From Camillea tinctor (taxonomy: Eukaryota > Ascomycota > Sordariomycetes > Xylariales > Xylariaceae), in contig MU394066.1 in NCBI GenBank assembly GCA_022578605.1, positions 310,001-374,000 on the forward strand: a stretch of DNA of 64,000 nucleotides, read 5' to 3'. Below, in pieces: positions 6,122 through 15,248 of this stretch. The notes under the pieces are model-generated. The model had not been told where the DNA came from. It made no database searches and worked only from the letters and a program-made list of their open reading frames with translations. The translations under genes and the position numbers were made by a program. Position 1 is the first letter of the stretch, and each line of letters opens with the position of its first letter.

Positions 6122-7729
6122 TCATGTTTCCGTAGGTGATGCAAGCAATGGAGTCGTCTCTGCACGTGAGCCCTTTCCGCCTTCTGCATCGACAGTATCC
6201 TTTCGTGGCATATTCAAAAACTTGCCACCATCAACGTTTCTTACTGCCCAGCTCTCATCGGTCTGTGCTGAGACGAAGAACTCCTGGTTCTCCTCAAAGC
6301 TTCTTCCCCCTGTCTCAGGCGAATACTGCCAAGTCCACCAGCCTGCAAAGGCATTCGTGGCGGCAAAGACCAGGAACAACCAATATTTAAGGTTGTTGAA
6401 CATAATTGGCGTCAGGAGGGTGATTGCAAAATTGCACAGACCCCAAAGTATAACAGAAACGCTACTGCCCTGTGCGCGCGCACCCGTTGGATAAATCTCC
6501 GTAGGTATTAGCCACACTGTTGCTAGCCAGCAGATGCCAAAAATTGCTGTGGCAATGAAGAGGGTGACAGATCCTAAAATCTCGACCGCTAGGATAGACA
6601 CATGGGAGACGTCCACTGAAAGACCACCGAAGAGTGTCAGTAGAGCAAAGCAAGATGCCAGTCCTACGGAGCCCCAAACCATTAGTTTTCTCCGGCCCAG
6701 GACATCGATGGTCATCCAGGCTAGTGTCATCATTAAGAAATAGCTGATGTAATTGCCCAGTGTCACATACTCAGCGTCACGCACGCCGAAGCCGAGTAGT
6801 TCGAATATTTGAGGGCCGTAAACGGATACGGCCCCATAGCCAGTTAAGGCCTGATTAACCTGACACATTACCGTGAGCATAGTTGGATGGAATTGACCAC
6901 CACTGGGCCACAGCATATCGATGTAGCTAATATTCTCTTCACTCTCCTCCTGGTGGGCCCGATGAAGCTCATCGAGCATGTCCTCAGCCTTGACTTCGCC
7001 ATGAAGATCTACCAAGGCCTTTCTCGCATCTTGTTTTCTTTCTTTGCTGATAAACCAACGTGGTGTCTCTGGCAGCTTGTTGATGATGGAGATGAGCAAG
7101 ATTGGGAAGGCCTGCATCACCACAATTGGGATCCGCCACGCCCATTGGTTATCCTTTCCCAGAGCAACAGTGACACCCAGGTTGATCGAGAACGCCATTA
7201 GCAAGCCAAAGATGTTCATCTGGAACTCCTGTGCGAGCGCCCGTCCCCGGGCGCCGTCTTTGGACAGTTCTGAGCTGTATACCGGGATAACGGCATCGAT
7301 GCCGCCGACCCCGAGTCCCAGAATCACACGACCGGCCATCATAAAGGCCATAGCCGCGCCACCCCAAGGATCCGAACCACTGGGGCTCAGGCCAGCGATA
7401 AACATGAGAATGTTCCCAACCATGCCTGTAACTAAACAGGCCGATATGGAGGGCTTCCTCCCTTTCCGGTCAGCCCATATGGAGGCTACCACTGCACCGA
7501 CGGCGCAGCCTAGGTAGTAAATAGAGACGATGATGCCGACGACTGGAGAGCTCTCCGCTATGCCCATGGTGCGGAGATAAGAGCGATTGGTATTGATCAT
7601 GCTCATCATGCCCTGGTCGTAGCCGTACAGCGCAATGGCTGTACTGCTGAAGATGACAATCTCATGTTTCTTGGAGATGGTCGGTTTCCGGGCACTGGGG
7701 TCGTCGACCCGGGATGGAGGGAAAGGCAT
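6122..7729 (-). CDS. MFS sugar-transporter-family permease
   Basis: A proton-coupled sugar-type porter of the plasma membrane, 535 residues, intronless. Family marks seen: GYDQGMMS in the first membrane segment, DRKGRK in the loop between segments 2 and 3, a GLGVGGIDAVIPVYSSEL segment (sugar-transporter signature), PETPRWFISKER after segment 6, and PTEIYPTGARAQGSS near segment 10. Hydrophobic stretches fit 12 membrane helices with a central cytoplasmic loop. The substrate cannot be told from sequence; hexose, oligosaccharide or an acid sugar are all possible. Its convergent neighbour is a secreted LPMO, so uptake of plant-wall sugars is a reasonable but unproven link. Confidence 0.88.
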   Translation of the reverse strand: MPFPPSRVDDPSARKPTISKKHEIVIFSSTAIALYGYDQGMMSMINTNRSYLRTMGIAESSPVVGIIVSIYYLGCAVGAVVASIWADRKGRKPSISACLVTGMVGNILMFIAGLSPSGSDPWGGAAMAFMMAGRVILGLGVGGIDAVIPVYSSELSKDGARGRALAQEFQMNIFGLLMAFSINLGVTVALGKDNQWAWRIPIVVMQAFPILLISIINKLPETPRWFISKERKQDARKALVDLHGEVKAEDMLDELHRAHQEESEENISYIDMLWPSGGQFHPTMLTVMCQVNQALTGYGAVSVYGPQIFELLGFGVRDAEYVTLGNYISYFLMMTLAWMTIDVLGRRKLMVWGSVGLASCFALLTLFGGLSVDVSHVSILAVEILGSVTLFIATAIFGICWLATVWLIPTEIYPTGARAQGSSVSVILWGLCNFAITLLTPIMFNNLKYWLFLVFAATNAFAGWWTWQYSPETGGRSFEENQEFFVSAQTDESWAVRNVDGGKFLNMPRKDTVDAEGGKGSRAETTPLLASPTET

Positions 7730-8674: not shown

Positions 8675-11617
8675 CTAGAAGACACTATCGGGCATTTCCA
8701 CATGTCCGCCAAGCAACCTTATTACTCCTATGTAACATGCCTTGTGAAACCTTTGGGTACTGTTATGATATGCTGCTGTTGCTAAACTCAACGGTGTATC
8801 TCCGTGTTTCGTTCTCGCGTTCATGTCGGCCCCGGCGTCGATTAGCACTTGCACTATTTCCTCATGGGCTCCTCTAGCCGCTAAGTGTAATGGTGTTATA
8901 CCGAAACTATTTTCCGTTTGATTTTCAGCCGGTTTCAGTGGTCTCGTGATGTGCTTGCCGTTATGAATTCTTTTCAATATGACCTCACGCGTATAATCAC
9001 AACCAGCTTTGATATTGACATTAGCTCCATGCTTTATGAGCAACGCTGCCATCTCTTCGTCACCGCCCTTAACTGATTTAAGAATTGGTGTCATCCCGTA
9101 TTTGTCTTTCGCGTTAACGTCAGCCCCATGTTGAATCAGACACTTCACTGCTTCGAAGTGGTTTCTCCACGCTGCTGAAAACAGGGGTGTCTCTCCACGA
9201 TTATTGGTTGCGTCAATAGTGGCACCATTGTCAAGCAACATCTGCACTATCTTTGGATCTGAATGTTGTGATACATAGTGTAGCGCTGTATTACCGTATG
9301 TGTCTTTCGCGTTAACATCAAGTCCATGGTCTTCTATCAGCATTTGTTTGAGGTCTTCTTCGCCATGTATGGCTGCGTTGTGTAGTACTGTGACCTTGTC
9401 TTTATTTTTCACGTGCACATCGGCTCCAGAATCTATTAGCATTTGGACAATGTTTTTTTTGCCACCACGTGCTGCGTTGTGTAGTGCTGTATTCTTCATT
9501 TTATCTTTTGCGTGAATGTCAGCTCCAGCGTCTATTAGCAACTGAACAAGATCGCTTGAAGACGATCTTGCGGAGGTTGCCCTGTGCAGTACTGTCTCCC
9601 CTCGGCGTGATTTCATATTGACGTTAGCGCCATGCCGGACTAACCATCGTGCCATTGACCCAAGATCGGGATCTGTAGCTATTACGTGCAGCACAGCAAG
9701 CCCATTTTGATCTTGTGCGTTAATATCCGCTCCGTACGTTTTAACTAGCAACTCCACGATTTCTTGGTGTCCCTCAGTGGCTGCATAATGTAGTGCAGTC
9801 TGTCCTATGTTGTCTCTCTTATCTACAGATCGTAGACGCCAAATGGACAAAGGTGCCCTGCGAAGTAGCAGGTGAACCCATGGGGCAATTCCAAAATAAC
9901 AAGCTAGGTGTAAGATTGGTGATAGTGCATCATCATAGGTATCTGAAGTTCGAAGGTTATAAGCTGTCAACCATTTATATCGTAGCGGAGAATTCTTCTG
10001 GAAGAATGGGCCTTGGGGATCAAACAGCTCGTTCGCACGTGTTGAAGAGCACCTTGCATGCTGGGGCCAGTAGAGAATTGCGTACTGCAATAGAGGAGGG
10101 TTGTCCAGTTTTCCGTACAGATCCTCTGTTTCGAGATTGCTACATGCAATGCAATCAAGACAAGACCGTGCCAGCTCTAAATGTGCATTCTCTGGTTCAA
10201 CGCGAAACTCTTCCAGGACTTCATTGTCGTCAGGTCCCTTCCGCAGTAGATAGTCTCTCGCCGACTCATGCACTAGGCCAACTTCGTCTACTATCTTTTT
10301 ATCACGTCCCCGGCGATTAGTAACACGTTTCCTTAGCACTTTAAGGAATGGACCGCACATGGTGAGATAATCGTGAATAGCATCCTCCCTATTAAGCCCT
10401 GGAGGGGCTTGAAGCCGAACGGCATCTGCTAGCTCTAGTAGCGTTAGAGGGCGAGCTGCCACTACAACCCAGCGCAGAATCGAAGCAATCGTTTGTCTTC
10501 GACTAGCCTCAATTTGGAGTAACATTCGACTATAAATTGCGGGCAGTCCTTTTGGAATATCACGAAGGGCATCCAGCACCTCTGTACGCGTCCGCTTCTG
10601 GGACAGCTCGTTCATAACGAAACCAACCCATAGGAAAGTCCGTTCGGAGCGTTGTGAAAGGCTCTCATGTACGCTTGCGCGGAACTCATCATCGAATCCC
10701 TCTATTCCTCTCGATAGCTCTTCAACTTTGGCTGAGATAAACATTTCAATATCGCTAGCAACTTGTTCTTCGTGGTCAGGATCAAGTTTGATCCGTGAAC
10801 AGCTATGTAAACCATGCACATCACGACTCACAATCACCAGCTTAAACAGTTGGTTGATTGGCTGCGAATCTTTCGAGTACATGCTGACCAAACTTGATAT
10901 TAACGTTCTTCTTGAATCTTGATCGCATTCATCGAGGCCGTCTAGCACACATAAAGTTTTACCCAGCGCACCATCTTGAACAATGTCCTTGAACATCATC
11001 CAGAGGGCTTCCAGAGAATTCACCGTGCTCTTGGCCTTTTCTGGTAATTCGAAGGATGGCAACACGTATTTGGCCAACTTCGGACGTTTCTTTAAAATCT
11101 GGTACAGGAGTCCCCGAAGGATAGAGACAGCGCTATTGCGCGTGTCATGCTGATGACTACAAAAGTAGAATATGACCTCGGTGTTTTCTTCATCCTTCGC
11201 AATCATTTCAAGGTGTTCAGTGAGGAAGATGGAAAGCATTGTCTTTCCTTTACCAGGACCCCCAGAGATCCAGAGAGGGCGTGTATCACCGCCTACCCAG
11301 GATAGATAGCTCTCATTTTTGGTAATCCATTCGCATGTTCCATCTGTCCTCGATCCTTTAGCACTTTTAAGTGCCTCTCTGTCAACGTAGGGATCGGTGA
11401 GGAAGAGGGCGTTTAGGCATTCGCCCAATTTTCCTACCAAAATGTCAGTGACTTTATAATATATTAAAGGTTATGGGTAAGATGGACTGAAAAACGGACC
11501 TTGGGGATTTGTAGAGGAGCCGAAGTATACGTCTCTAGCAGACCCCGCAAAGGCCTGTGAGCCATTTTGTGCAAACACTTCGCTGATGTGCTGATTAGAC
11601 AGTGGATTGCTAGACAT
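8675..11617 (-). CDS. NLR-type protein: N-terminal amyloid-like motif, NACHT, ankyrin repeats
   Basis: Predicted intracellular receptor/STAND NTPase. The large frame has no in-frame ATG, so I rebuilt a first exon. ATG at 11617, exon 1 11617-11500, a 66-nt intron 11499-11434 (GTCCGT...GGTAG), exon 2 11433-8675: 958 residues, phase-consistent. Order: residues 1-40, rich in N/Q/G/S, with motif NQHISEVFAQNGSQAFAG at 8-25; then GECLNALFLTDP, the usual lead-in to NACHT; Walker A GGPGKGKT at 97-104; Walker B LCVLDGLDECD near 200-210; about nine ankyrin repeats from roughly 575 to the end (GQTALHYAA, NTALHNAA, GETPLFSAA, ITPLHLAA). The N-terminal segment matches the C-terminus of the divergent Helo-like neighbour, which suggests a receptor/executor pair. 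The start could lie slightly further upstream. Confidence 0.85.
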
Positions 11618-12188
11618 AATGCTAGATATCTGTGTTCATCAAGATATCTTCGTACGAGTAGAATCTGATGATACAAATCTTGCATCCCTCCTATAGTCAT
11701 TTGTTCTTTATATCAATGCCACATAGAAGGAAATAAGATATGTAGGTGATAGAAAAAGCAGGCCCATGGAGTATCCTCGTTATCTAGATATATGTATACA
11801 TATCTTGGAAGGATCCCCTCTTCTAGAGATCCTCCCCCAATCATCATTTCTTACAGCCTACTGATTTTTTATCTTTTCTCCATCCACATTGGTATGTAAC
11901 TTTATGCCCAATAAATCCCAAGATACCCCACAGCTCCGAGTCCATCGGAGTGGATGACAATCGAGCACTAAATATTCGGTGAGAGGATTGTAATATACTA
12001 TTGGGTCGATGCAAATACGACTGGAGCATTATGGTAGCATCGGGATATTGGCGTTGGGCTTCCAGTTTTCAGCTCTCAGACGATGGCTACCCAATTTAGA
12101 TATAGGACGACGTAGATATCATTAGGTACCCCTCTTCTCGAGAAGGACGAATTCCGTTTTTGAATTGTGCACTTTAAGGTTGAGTCTC
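11618..12188. promoter_or_regulatory. Shared divergent promoter of NLR and Helo-like genes
   Basis: These 571 bases separate two start codons pointing away from each other. There is no credible frame between them. Fungal receptor/effector pairs are often arranged this way; co-regulation is inferred. Confidence 0.55.
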
Positions 12189-13164
12189 ATGGATCCCCTC
12201 AGTATCACCGCCAGTGCTATTGGCATTACCGGGTTCGCCACATCCAGTATCGTCCAGCTTCATGACTTTATCAATAGTCTCACCGACGCAAAAGATGTAG
12301 TGCAGGATATCGCCTCGAATTTGCAGGGTATAGAACGTTCACTGGCGACACTCGAGACATTATGCATTTCCGACGAAACGACTTCTGCGGCAGCCAAGGA
12401 AGATCTAAAGAAGGCTGGCGTTGCGGAGGCTGTTAACAGGTGCGGTGATGCTTGCAGTGATTTCACTAAGAACCTCGAGAAGTGGACAAAGCACTCTAGC
12501 ACCAAGAAACTATCCCTTAGAGATCGTTTCTTAGTAGGCGTATGGAATAAGGAAAAGATCCGTACATTTAAATCCCAAGTGCGATCTTGCGAGGCTATCG
12601 TACAGTTTGCCGTCGTGAGCACTCAACTGTGAGTATTCTATTTGCGTATTTCAATTATTCATACCTAATGGATAAGCTAACCTTCCTGAAAGCGCAGTGC
12701 AACTACGGTTAGAAAAGATGTCCGAGACGGAAAGGGAGAATGTGAACACGCAATTGCAATCCCTCAAAACAAAGATCCAGGAGCATCTCGATCTTATCAA
12801 ACAGCAGAAAGATGAAGCCGAAGAGCGCAAGCGAGAGCTTGAGGAAGAGTCAGATGACGAAGAAGATGGCGGTGCCCAACGAACCTTAGCCATCAAGGAA
12901 ATTGAAAAACGATTACGCCTTCTAGAGACGGATCAAGTTTCATGCGGAGTTGTGTTTTCGCAACTTCGTTCAAAAGAGACCGGCCAGGAGATTGGCAACG
13001 TGATAACCACTGATGATTCTAGAGCTTTAGTAGGTCTGCCGGAAAGTGTCGTCGGAAAGATCAATCAGCGTATTAGAGATGTGACAACTCAGAATAAATC
13101 TGCTGCTGTTGTGGGGGTCTTTGACAGGAATGTTAGCATGAATGGTTTCTGGAAAACATCATAG
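12189..13164 (+). CDS. Helo-like N-terminal-domain protein with C-terminal amyloid-like motif
   Basis: Exon 1 12189-12628, intron 12629-12692 (GTGAGT, CTAAC branch, CTGAAAG acceptor; the later GCGCAG would break the phase), exon 2 12693-13164: 303 residues. The start MDPLSITASAIGITGFATSS and following helices fit the fungal Helo-like/azaphilone-cluster-L N-terminal family (PF17111-type). A charged coiled coil follows at about 150-215 (QLRLEKMSETER to EEESDDEEDGG). The C-terminus carries VGLPESVVGK and then NQRIRDVTTQNKSAAVVG at 271-288, ending FWKTS. This last segment matches residues 8-25 of the adjacent NLR. By analogy with HET-S/NWD2-like pairs it may be a membrane-acting cell-death executor; that role is inference. 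Confidence 0.8.
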
Positions 13165-13605: not shown

Positions 13606-15248
13606 ATGCTCGGAATTTGGCAGCAGCGCGAAATCTTTGAGGTCAGAGAAGCCTTGATAACTCCTTCACTAAGCCAAACACATTTACCTAGGACCTAGGT
13701 GCTATGAATACTTGCTTACCAAACATACAGGCTAAGGCTAAAGACCAGCTGATAGCACGGCTGAAGGAACATGGCGCCGTTTTAGATGACGACGTGGAGG
13801 CTTTCAAGTGTGATGCTATTGCCTACTACCGGAAGGACCTGCAGGCTAAAGGACGCCACCCCATGATGATTAGGGATAAAAGGCGGAGGCAGCAGGAAAT
13901 AAAGGATACATTTGACAAGATATCTCTATACTACTTCACCCCTACAGTCGTCAACCGTATCGAATCCCACGTGCCCAATGGCCGTCGTATTCAAGTCTAC
14001 GAGAAAGTGTTCGAAGGCATTTCAGAATCGGACTCGTTCGGATCACGAAATAAGCCAGTCTGTAACCCACGTGGGATACCAGAGACACCTTTTTCAGTCT
14101 CTAAAGCCGTAAGACCGACCCCTGATAACACTATTTTATGGGTTCATGATCACTCAAAACTAGCGATATAGGCGCCAGGGTCTGTGAAATCTAATGCCGA
14201 GCTGATAGATAGTCTTGCGTTAGCAACTAACATGGAAGCCGGTGATACGGTCGGAATACGCAGCCATATCACATTTTTGGATTCCATGAACAATGAAGGC
14301 CTGTCTGGGGGGATGAGGGGTAGCGTGGGACTTGTGAGCGGTGGTAGATTAAACCGAGACCACATGCTGAGCGATGTACCAAATCACTATGTCAGAGACC
14401 GTCTGATGGCTTACATAAATGGCGAGCTTGAGGAAAGCAAGAGGGACGCTGCGCGCGCTGCTGTCTTCCCTGACCTGACTCCCAGCGAGGTGGAGCAATA
14501 CTCTGCGCTTATTGCCAAGAAACGGGAGGAGGATGAGCTTGAGGTGACTAAAGGTAAGTTCACTAATAGACCTACCATCACTAACATGTGAAGAAGAAAA
14601 AAAGAGAGCCGATCTTAGGCGAAGCAACAACCGACTAACAGGAACCTCTCAGCCAACCAGCCGCTTGATAAAGAGTCGAAAGAAAGGATTCGCCAAACCC
14701 GCGCGATGCAGAGCATCGACCACGAGATTGACTTGACGCCCCGTCCCGGGCTCCACACCCGGAACTACAACCGCCTTTCGGCGCCGAAAATCCGGCGCTC
14801 TGTAATCACACCAAATGTGGCACACGCGGGGGCTGCGCAGCTCGCGTTGGATATCGGCACCGACATCGACCTCGACTGCGACCAGGTGCGGGCCATGATC
14901 AAGCGCTTCACGTGCGAGGGAGAGTGGTACATTGACGAGTTCCGCTGGGCCTTGGGCGCTGTCTCGCGCGCGACTATGATTTCCTTCCTTGAGATGCGCG
15001 GCCCCGAAAAGGGCAAGAGGAGTGTCGTGTACGAGCTGGCGTGGGAGTTCCTCAGGACGCGGGAGCGCCTGGGCTTCCCGATCGAGTGGTCTGACGTCTA
15101 TCCGCCCTGCAACAGTTCGGATGGAAGTAGCGAGGATGAAGGAAGCGATGCTGGGGATAACCGCGGTACAAAACGCTCGGGTTCTGGAGAGGACCGCGAG
15201 GCTAGTACGACTAGGAAGCGTGCGAGAACTAGAAAAACTGCTGCTTAA
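13606..15248 (+). CDS. Four-exon protein resembling the fungal DUF7726 family, possibly nuclear
   Basis: Exons 13606-13641, 13731-14108, 14172-14553 and 14653-15248 join in phase to 463 residues. Introns begin GTCAGA, GTAAGA and GTAAGT and end CAG, TAG and CAG; a GACTAAC branch is seen before the last. N-terminal: KDQLIARLKEHGAVLDDDVE, a SAP/lid-like stretch. Centre: charged and helical. Towards the C-terminus, a block beginning LDCDQVRAMIKRFTCEGEW and running through EFRWALG, FLEMRGP and YELAWEFLRTRERLG looks like the DNA-binding-like DUF7726 fold. The tail is acidic then basic (TKRSGSGEDREASTTRKRAR), a possible nuclear signal. Function is unknown. It is co-directional with the Helo-like gene, 442 bases downstream. 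The 12-residue first exon is the least certain part. Confidence 0.6.

Follow-up and report, generated by a model that had tools for sequence, protein, structure and literature searches.

Two divergent neighbouring genes of the fungus Camillea tinctor (Xylariales), located in a 64,000-nucleotide stretch of contig MU394066.1 (GenBank assembly GCA_022578605.1, 44.7 Mb in 154 contigs; positions 310,001 to 374,000 of the forward strand, hereafter the window), were found to encode a NACHT-ankyrin NOD-like receptor (NLR) on the minus strand and an effector with a HeLo-like (HELL) domain on the plus strand, with their start codons 571 bp apart. The locus is interpreted as an amyloid-signalling pair, receptor and executor, built on the HET-s-related amyloid motif (HRAM), most likely of the HRAM2 subclass, and this interpretation has been given a probability of about 0.85. 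A first-pass annotation made from the letters of the window had already suggested an NLR/HELL receptor/executor pair, and the sequence data support it: a motif is shared by the N-terminus of the NLR and the C-terminus of the effector, the genes are divergent, the match exceeds those of shuffled sequences and the arrangement recurs in other species. The motif is present once in the receptor (r0) and twice in the effector (r1 and r2), as follows.

11543..11596, minus strand: r0, receptor motif NQHISEVFAQNGSQAFAG, NLR residues 8-25 (sequence and shuffle test)
12982..13035, plus strand: r1, first effector repeat GQEIGNVITTDDSRALVG, residues 244-261 (alignment and shuffle test; overlooked by the first-pass annotation)
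13063..13116, plus strand: r2, second effector repeat NQRIRDVTTQNKSAAVVG, residues 271-288 (alignment and shuffle test)
13117..13161, plus strand: C-terminal tail VFDRNVSMNGFWKTS with aromatic residues (read from the sequence)

The match first noticed, between NLR residues 8-25 and effector residues 271-288, has 9 of 18 identical residues without gaps, with coordinates and residues as reported, and its continuation into R-[N/D]-V after one gap is present in the letters. When the first 40 amino acids of the NLR were compared with the last 95 of the effector, the best ungapped 18-mer scored 39 (BLOSUM62). This score was reached by none of 3000 double shuffles that kept composition (mean 14.9, standard deviation 4.3, maximum 35), a control named beforehand, and nine identities were reached by only one of them. 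The effector tail also matches itself, with a best score of 34 that 4 of 3000 shuffles reached. At the 18 positions, the pairwise scores were 39 for r0-r2 (9 identical), 33 for r1-r2 (8 identical) and 27 for r0-r1 (6 identical). A profile of the effector repeats, built from 34 relatives (68 rows, two of them r1 and r2 of the window, and no NLR sequence), was run over the six-frame translation of the window (1634 stop-to-stop frames of 25 amino acids or more). The effector exon ranked first (37.3 bits), as expected because it is in the training set; the first exon of the NLR ranked second (7.4 bits) and the next frame reached 4.3 bits. A single copy of each of r0, r1 and r2 was found in the C. 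tinctor genome.

The recurrence of the pair has been analysed in 73 effector matches and the best 120 of 818 NLR matches. Genes were taken as linked when they shared the species name and lay on contigs of equal size, gene order not being seen; consecutive locus tags occur only in P0002/P0138, and the contigs involved include two long ones (3.08 Mb and 0.95 Mb). At least seven linked pairs were obtained, and the best 18-mer between NLR N-terminus and effector tail was in register (r0 with r1 or r2) in all seven, which is the outcome that the co-conservation check named beforehand had called for; in Corynespora and Monosporascus it was displaced C-terminally on the same diagonal. The number of shuffles per 1000 that reached the pair score, and the bits given to the NLR by the effector-repeat profile, were 2 and 7.6 in Monosporascus GIB2, 1 and 0.1 in Corynespora cassiicola, 32 and -1.7 in Karstenula rhodostoma, 5 and 3.9 in Periconia macrospinosa, 3 and 9.6 in Xylaria grammica, 0 and 15.0 in Xylaria scruposa, and 0 and 15.5 in Nemania FL0916. 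Among 67 NLR N-termini, which are the best 120 of 818 minus 53 with fewer than 25 amino acids before the anchor (many being metagenome frames without exon 1), 15 reached at least 4 bits with the same profile, in comparison with 1 of 1360 shuffles, and alignment of the receptor profile with the effector-repeat profile (hhalign) gave a probability of 91 and an E-value of 9.4e-7. Three further pairs on contigs of equal size (P0099/P0223, P0113/P0240 and P0125/P0243) could not be assessed for the motif because their effector is a first-exon fragment. Chance or low-complexity convergence of two protein ends rich in Q, N, S, A and G might be suspected because the motif is short and one linked pair is matched by 32 of 1000 shuffles, but this explanation is extremely improbable in view of the 3000 shuffles that all fell below the real score, the second rank of the NLR exon among 1634 frames and the fact that seven other linked pairs repeat the match in register. 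Eight Trichoderma NLRs of the same family (P0121, P0122, P0127, P0130, P0139, P0140, P0147 and P0148) share another N-terminal motif, approximately R/Q-I-H-Q-G-N.

The motif was compared with the HRAM pattern of the 2015 survey by Daskalov, Dyrka and Saupe (PMC4518210), in which HRAM2 was described. In HRAMs position 19 is G, and positions 5, 8, 10, 16 and 18 are hydrophobic, with T sometimes at 10; the keys are N3 for HRAM1, Q3 for HRAM2, H3 for HRAM3 and Q at 18 or 16 for HRAM4/5, and two effector copies separated by a loop of 6-18 residues are accompanied by one copy in the adjacent NLR (PMC4518210). In this numbering r1 and r2 both read Q3 I5 V8 T10 A16 V18 G19, and r0 reads Q3 I5 V8 A10 A16 A18 G19. 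The loop between r1 (positions 1-21, residues 243-263) and r2 (residues 270-290) has 6 residues. The residue keys, the two-repeat effector and the single copy in the adjacent NLR are all present. The subclass is most likely HRAM2 by the published keys because Q occupies position 3 and neither 16 nor 18.

The same pattern was observed in an alignment of 34 effectors (A1), which were selected from the 73 matches because their tails carried both repeats; Ses_B-type tails, fragments, and sequences whose tails are shortened or divergent (P0010, P0028, P0030, P0033, P0037 and P0049, among others) were omitted, and two further alignments, of 13 rows (A2) and 16 rows (A3), are subsets chosen by hand. 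In A1, I5 and G19 are present in all 34 sequences in both repeats, and the counts in r1 and r2 are 30 and 29 for Q3, 33 and 34 for T10, 33 and 28 for A16, and 33 and 31 for V18, with Q predominant at neither of the last two positions. Charges in r1 and r2 were opposite in 28 sequences at position 4, 6 at position 7, 14 at position 12 and 3 at position 13, and were never the same at these positions, with no case of either kind at 6 and 11; this complementarity agrees with the charge covariance published for HRAM repeats at positions 4, 6, 7, 11, 12 and 13 (PMC4518210). Two repeats of at least 5 bits were detected in 39 of 59 relatives of at least 235 amino acids, by a profile for which 34 of them had served as the training set. 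The HRAM2 species list of the survey includes Corynespora cassiicola and Westerdykella ornata, and both hold members of this family (P0013 and P0020). Table 1 of the survey gives C. cassiicola two HRAM2 and no other HRAM (PMC4518210); P0013 (299 amino acids) falls within its length cut and is presumably one of the two. The naming of subclasses is not uniform in the literature: Podospora has one HRAM4 in the 2015 table, later papers call HELLF an HRAM5 (PMC7889193, PMC5485727), and the names HRAM4 and HRAM5 appear to be interchanged. Among the 34 relatives, the loop between the repeats (LPESVVGK region, residues 263-269, 13039-13059) is strongly conserved, P263, S265, V266, V267 and G268 being nearly or fully invariant.

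The best PDB match of the effector tail was 6EKA of Podospora anserina, presumed to be the HELLF prion domain, with both repeats in register (phmmer, E 0.033), and 6EKA was again best with a 13-row profile (E 0.023); since the next entries, which have other folds, follow at 0.13 and 0.17, respectively, the match is suggestive and not significant alone. An AlphaFold2 model of the effector on 34 sequences (mean predicted local distance difference test, pLDDT, 80.3; predicted template modelling score, pTM, 0.74) forms a purely helical bundle through residue 243, followed by strands at 250-252, 257-263, 277-279 and 284-290 (block pLDDT 80, 69, 72 and 80). The strand pattern thus appears twice at an offset of 27 residues, which is the distance from r1 to r2. 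Because the model has been considered as secondary structure only, the stacking of these strands as beta-solenoid rungs would be a plausible reading of it. Beyond the Foldseek search described below, in which the MLKL executioner domain was found at rank 50 (E 1.2) within an otherwise helical-bundle background, the VIA-align rows of the effector model also lay within this background.

Several results weigh against the HRAM2 assignment or the strength of the pairing. PF11558 (HET-s 218-289) was not reported for the effector by Pfam at E up to 10, and a PF11558 search of the own genome was empty, as were the controls of that search; in published data, 38 of 155 HRAM effectors match PF11558. No HET-s PDB entry was obtained at E up to 10 in the tail searches, the 6EKA match is weak, a single-sequence fold of the isolated tail was of low quality (pLDDT 45.9, a mixture of strands and a helix), and Foldseek with the effector model gave no match at E <= 0.001. 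Among the linked pairs, P0017/P0128 of Karstenula is the weak one, at 32 per 1000 shuffles, and the effector-repeat profile gives only 0.1 bits to the NLR P0089 and -1.7 bits to P0128. Cognate pairs scored 243 against a mean of 216.8 for re-dealt ones (8 pairs; 0.032 of 40320 permutations), a modest result driven by three Xylariales pairs and without control for phylogeny. Finally, r0 is nearer to r2 in five of eight pairs and nearer to r1 in three, whereas in the survey text HRAM2 shows a trend, not a definition, towards r1 (PMC4518210).

Some of these points would favour the idea of the first-pass annotation that the motif belongs to an undescribed amyloid signalling class outside HRAM, namely the lack of a reported PF11558 match and the weakness of the 6EKA match, together with position 15 of r2 and r0, which is not the preferred R/K, and the conserved six-residue loop, inter-repeat loops being called unconserved in the 2015 survey, although the rows compared here are close relatives. 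However, all shared HRAM keys are present in the published numbering, Q3 is the published key of a subclass, and the survey lists solely two HRAM2 in C. cassiicola, which holds the family member P0013 (PMC4518210). An undescribed class is therefore considered quite improbable, and the proposal was not sustained: the motif fits the published HRAM pattern with the HRAM2 key and a double repeat, and 6EKA is its best PDB match. The related statement that this is not the classical HET-s repeat holds in that the motif is not a canonical HRAM1, PF11558 being unreported, and fails in that it fits the HRAM pattern. As for the suggested tie to Helo-like N-terminal domains, an association between HRAM and HELL domains had already been published (PMC4518210, PMC7889193).

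The gene models that support the HRAM2-type pair are the following.

11618..12188, no strand: divergent intergenic region between both start codons, 571 bp (gene models)
11500..11617, minus strand: NLR exon 1, coding for the N-terminal motif, ATG at 11617 (splice model; reads into the 921-amino-acid frame)
11434..11499, minus strand: predicted NLR intron, 66 nt, GT..TAG (splice model)
8675..11433, minus strand: NLR exon 2 with NACHT and ankyrin repeats, including the stop codon (open reading frame and domain search)
10823..11341, minus strand: NACHT-type nucleotide-binding domain, NLR residues 71-243 (Pfam NPHP3_N, E 1.4e-37; NACHT, E 7.1e-7)
9182..9805, minus strand: ankyrin repeats, NLR residues 583-790, best stretches listed (Pfam; further repeats towards the stop)
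12189..12628, plus strand: effector exon 1 (protein identical to deposited P0001)
12629..12692, plus strand: effector intron, 64 nt, GTGAGT..AAG (agrees with deposited P0001)
12693..13164, plus strand: effector exon 2, including the stop codon (gene model)
12189..12858, spanning the intron, plus strand: HELL domain, effector residues 1-202 (Pfam PF17111, E 4.2e-20)

The effector (303 amino acids) is identical over its full length to the deposited C. tinctor protein P0001, which supports its intron model. Its PF17111 domain, which PMC9815663 calls Helo_like_N and the current Pfam release PigL_N, scores 72.5 bits against a cut-off of 27.2. The NLR is predicted by the splice model to have 958 amino acids (stop codon at 8675-8677), and after the intron it remains open for 921 amino acids, with intact P-loop and Walker B. 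A pair that is real by descent, with a motif that no longer works in C. tinctor or with one gene decaying, could be considered because the Camillea NLR is not among the best 120 of 818 NLR matches, in which the closest protein listed is 51% identical, and may not be annotated as modelled; this is very improbable given the open NLR frame with its intact motifs, the intact and deposited effector, and the retention of I5, V8, A16 and G19 in r0. The receptor motif lies on a short first exon (11500-11617; 11434-11617 together with the intron) and would be hidden if gene callers miss that exon; the same first-exon omission is told for het-eN in PMC3321046. The pair is flanked on the 3' side of the effector by a frame of 180 amino acids (14706-15248, plus strand) with PF24852 (DUF7726, E 6e-21), and on the other side of the NLR by a sugar transporter (6122-7729, minus strand; Pfam Sugar_tr, E 1.4e-87).

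In a comparison with known systems, the Camillea pair shares with the HRAM2 subfamily Q3, hydrophobic residues at 5, 8, 16 and 18, G19, two effector repeats and one NLR copy (PMC4518210). The HELLF/FNT1 system of Podospora anserina (HRAM5 in PMC7889193; PDB 6EKA) has the same HELL domain with C-terminal r1-r2 and a neighbouring NLR with a single motif, and both repeats align in register. However, HELLF repeats carry Q directly before G19, where the Camillea family has V (33 of 34 in r1 and 31 of 34 in r2), so that cross-seeding with HELLF should not be assumed. HET-S/NWD2 of P. anserina (HRAM1) shares the layout of r0 at the NLR N-terminus, two C-terminal effector repeats and adjacent genes (PMC4344463, PMC4518210), and the aromatic residues of the Camillea tail stand at the place of the HET-s aromatic loop as described in the text of PMC4518210; it differs in having a HeLo domain, N3 and WD repeats, instead of HELL, Q3, ankyrin repeats and an effector for which PF11558 is not reported. 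In HELLP/PNT1 of Chaetomium globosum, an NLR likewise triggers a HELL executor by way of an amyloid motif common to both, which is a single pseudo-palindromic (PP) one and not a double HRAM repeat (PMC5485727).

By analogy with the published NWD2/HET-S (PMC4344463, PMC4518210) and HELLF systems, the ankyrin repeats of the NLR would sense a cue and the NACHT protein would open and oligomerise, bringing the N-terminal r0 motifs together. The gathered r0 copies may then fold into a beta-solenoid amyloid rung able to template the conversion of r1-r2 in the effector, whose HELL domain, once freed, would damage membranes and cause cell death.

A different tail has been found within the same HELL family. 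A tree of the HELL part with 59 rows contains, within proteins P0035-P0056, a 17-row clade (support 97/96) with 13 Ses_B-like tails (by our own pattern), three tails labelled other and one HRAM-like tail (P0037). Two of the three other tails show the PP core, and P0044 is neither PP nor HRAM. Two tails were run against Pfam, and both matched Ses_B over the cut-off; in their letters the tails are similar to the PP consensus given in PMC3321046. The clade consists mostly of Penicillium, Aspergillus and Talaromyces, with HELL domains about 47-62% identical to that of the window. A loose PP core was detected in 11 of 58 effector tails and in one of the best 120 of 818 NLR starts (P0166, Penicillium robsamsonii). 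On the tree, tails must have switched between HRAM and Ses_B-like at least twice; with a very long outgroup branch and a bootstrap that had not converged, the direction of these switches is uncertain. An exchange of the amyloid trigger within one orthologous HELL family, in which most members have the double HRAM repeat and this clade mostly a single PP-type motif, is tentatively put forward, at somewhat less than even odds, and receptor and executor may have changed together, since the NLR P0166, of the same receptor family, has a matching N-terminal PP motif.

The pair represents a good further instance of a known system, and not a new kind, because HRAM2 had already been defined (PMC4518210). 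It extends the HRAM systems by an intact receptor/executor pair from Camillea tinctor, for which relatives from several orders of Pezizomycotina are available for comparison, and its practical value is that r0, r1 and r2 are clear and single-copy in the genome. Structures have been described for HRAM1 (HET-s) and HELLF, and none was met for HRAM2 in the literature passages covered. The exchange of HRAM for PP tails, if true, would provide matched executors that differ mainly in their amyloid trigger, which would be useful for the study of signalling specificity.

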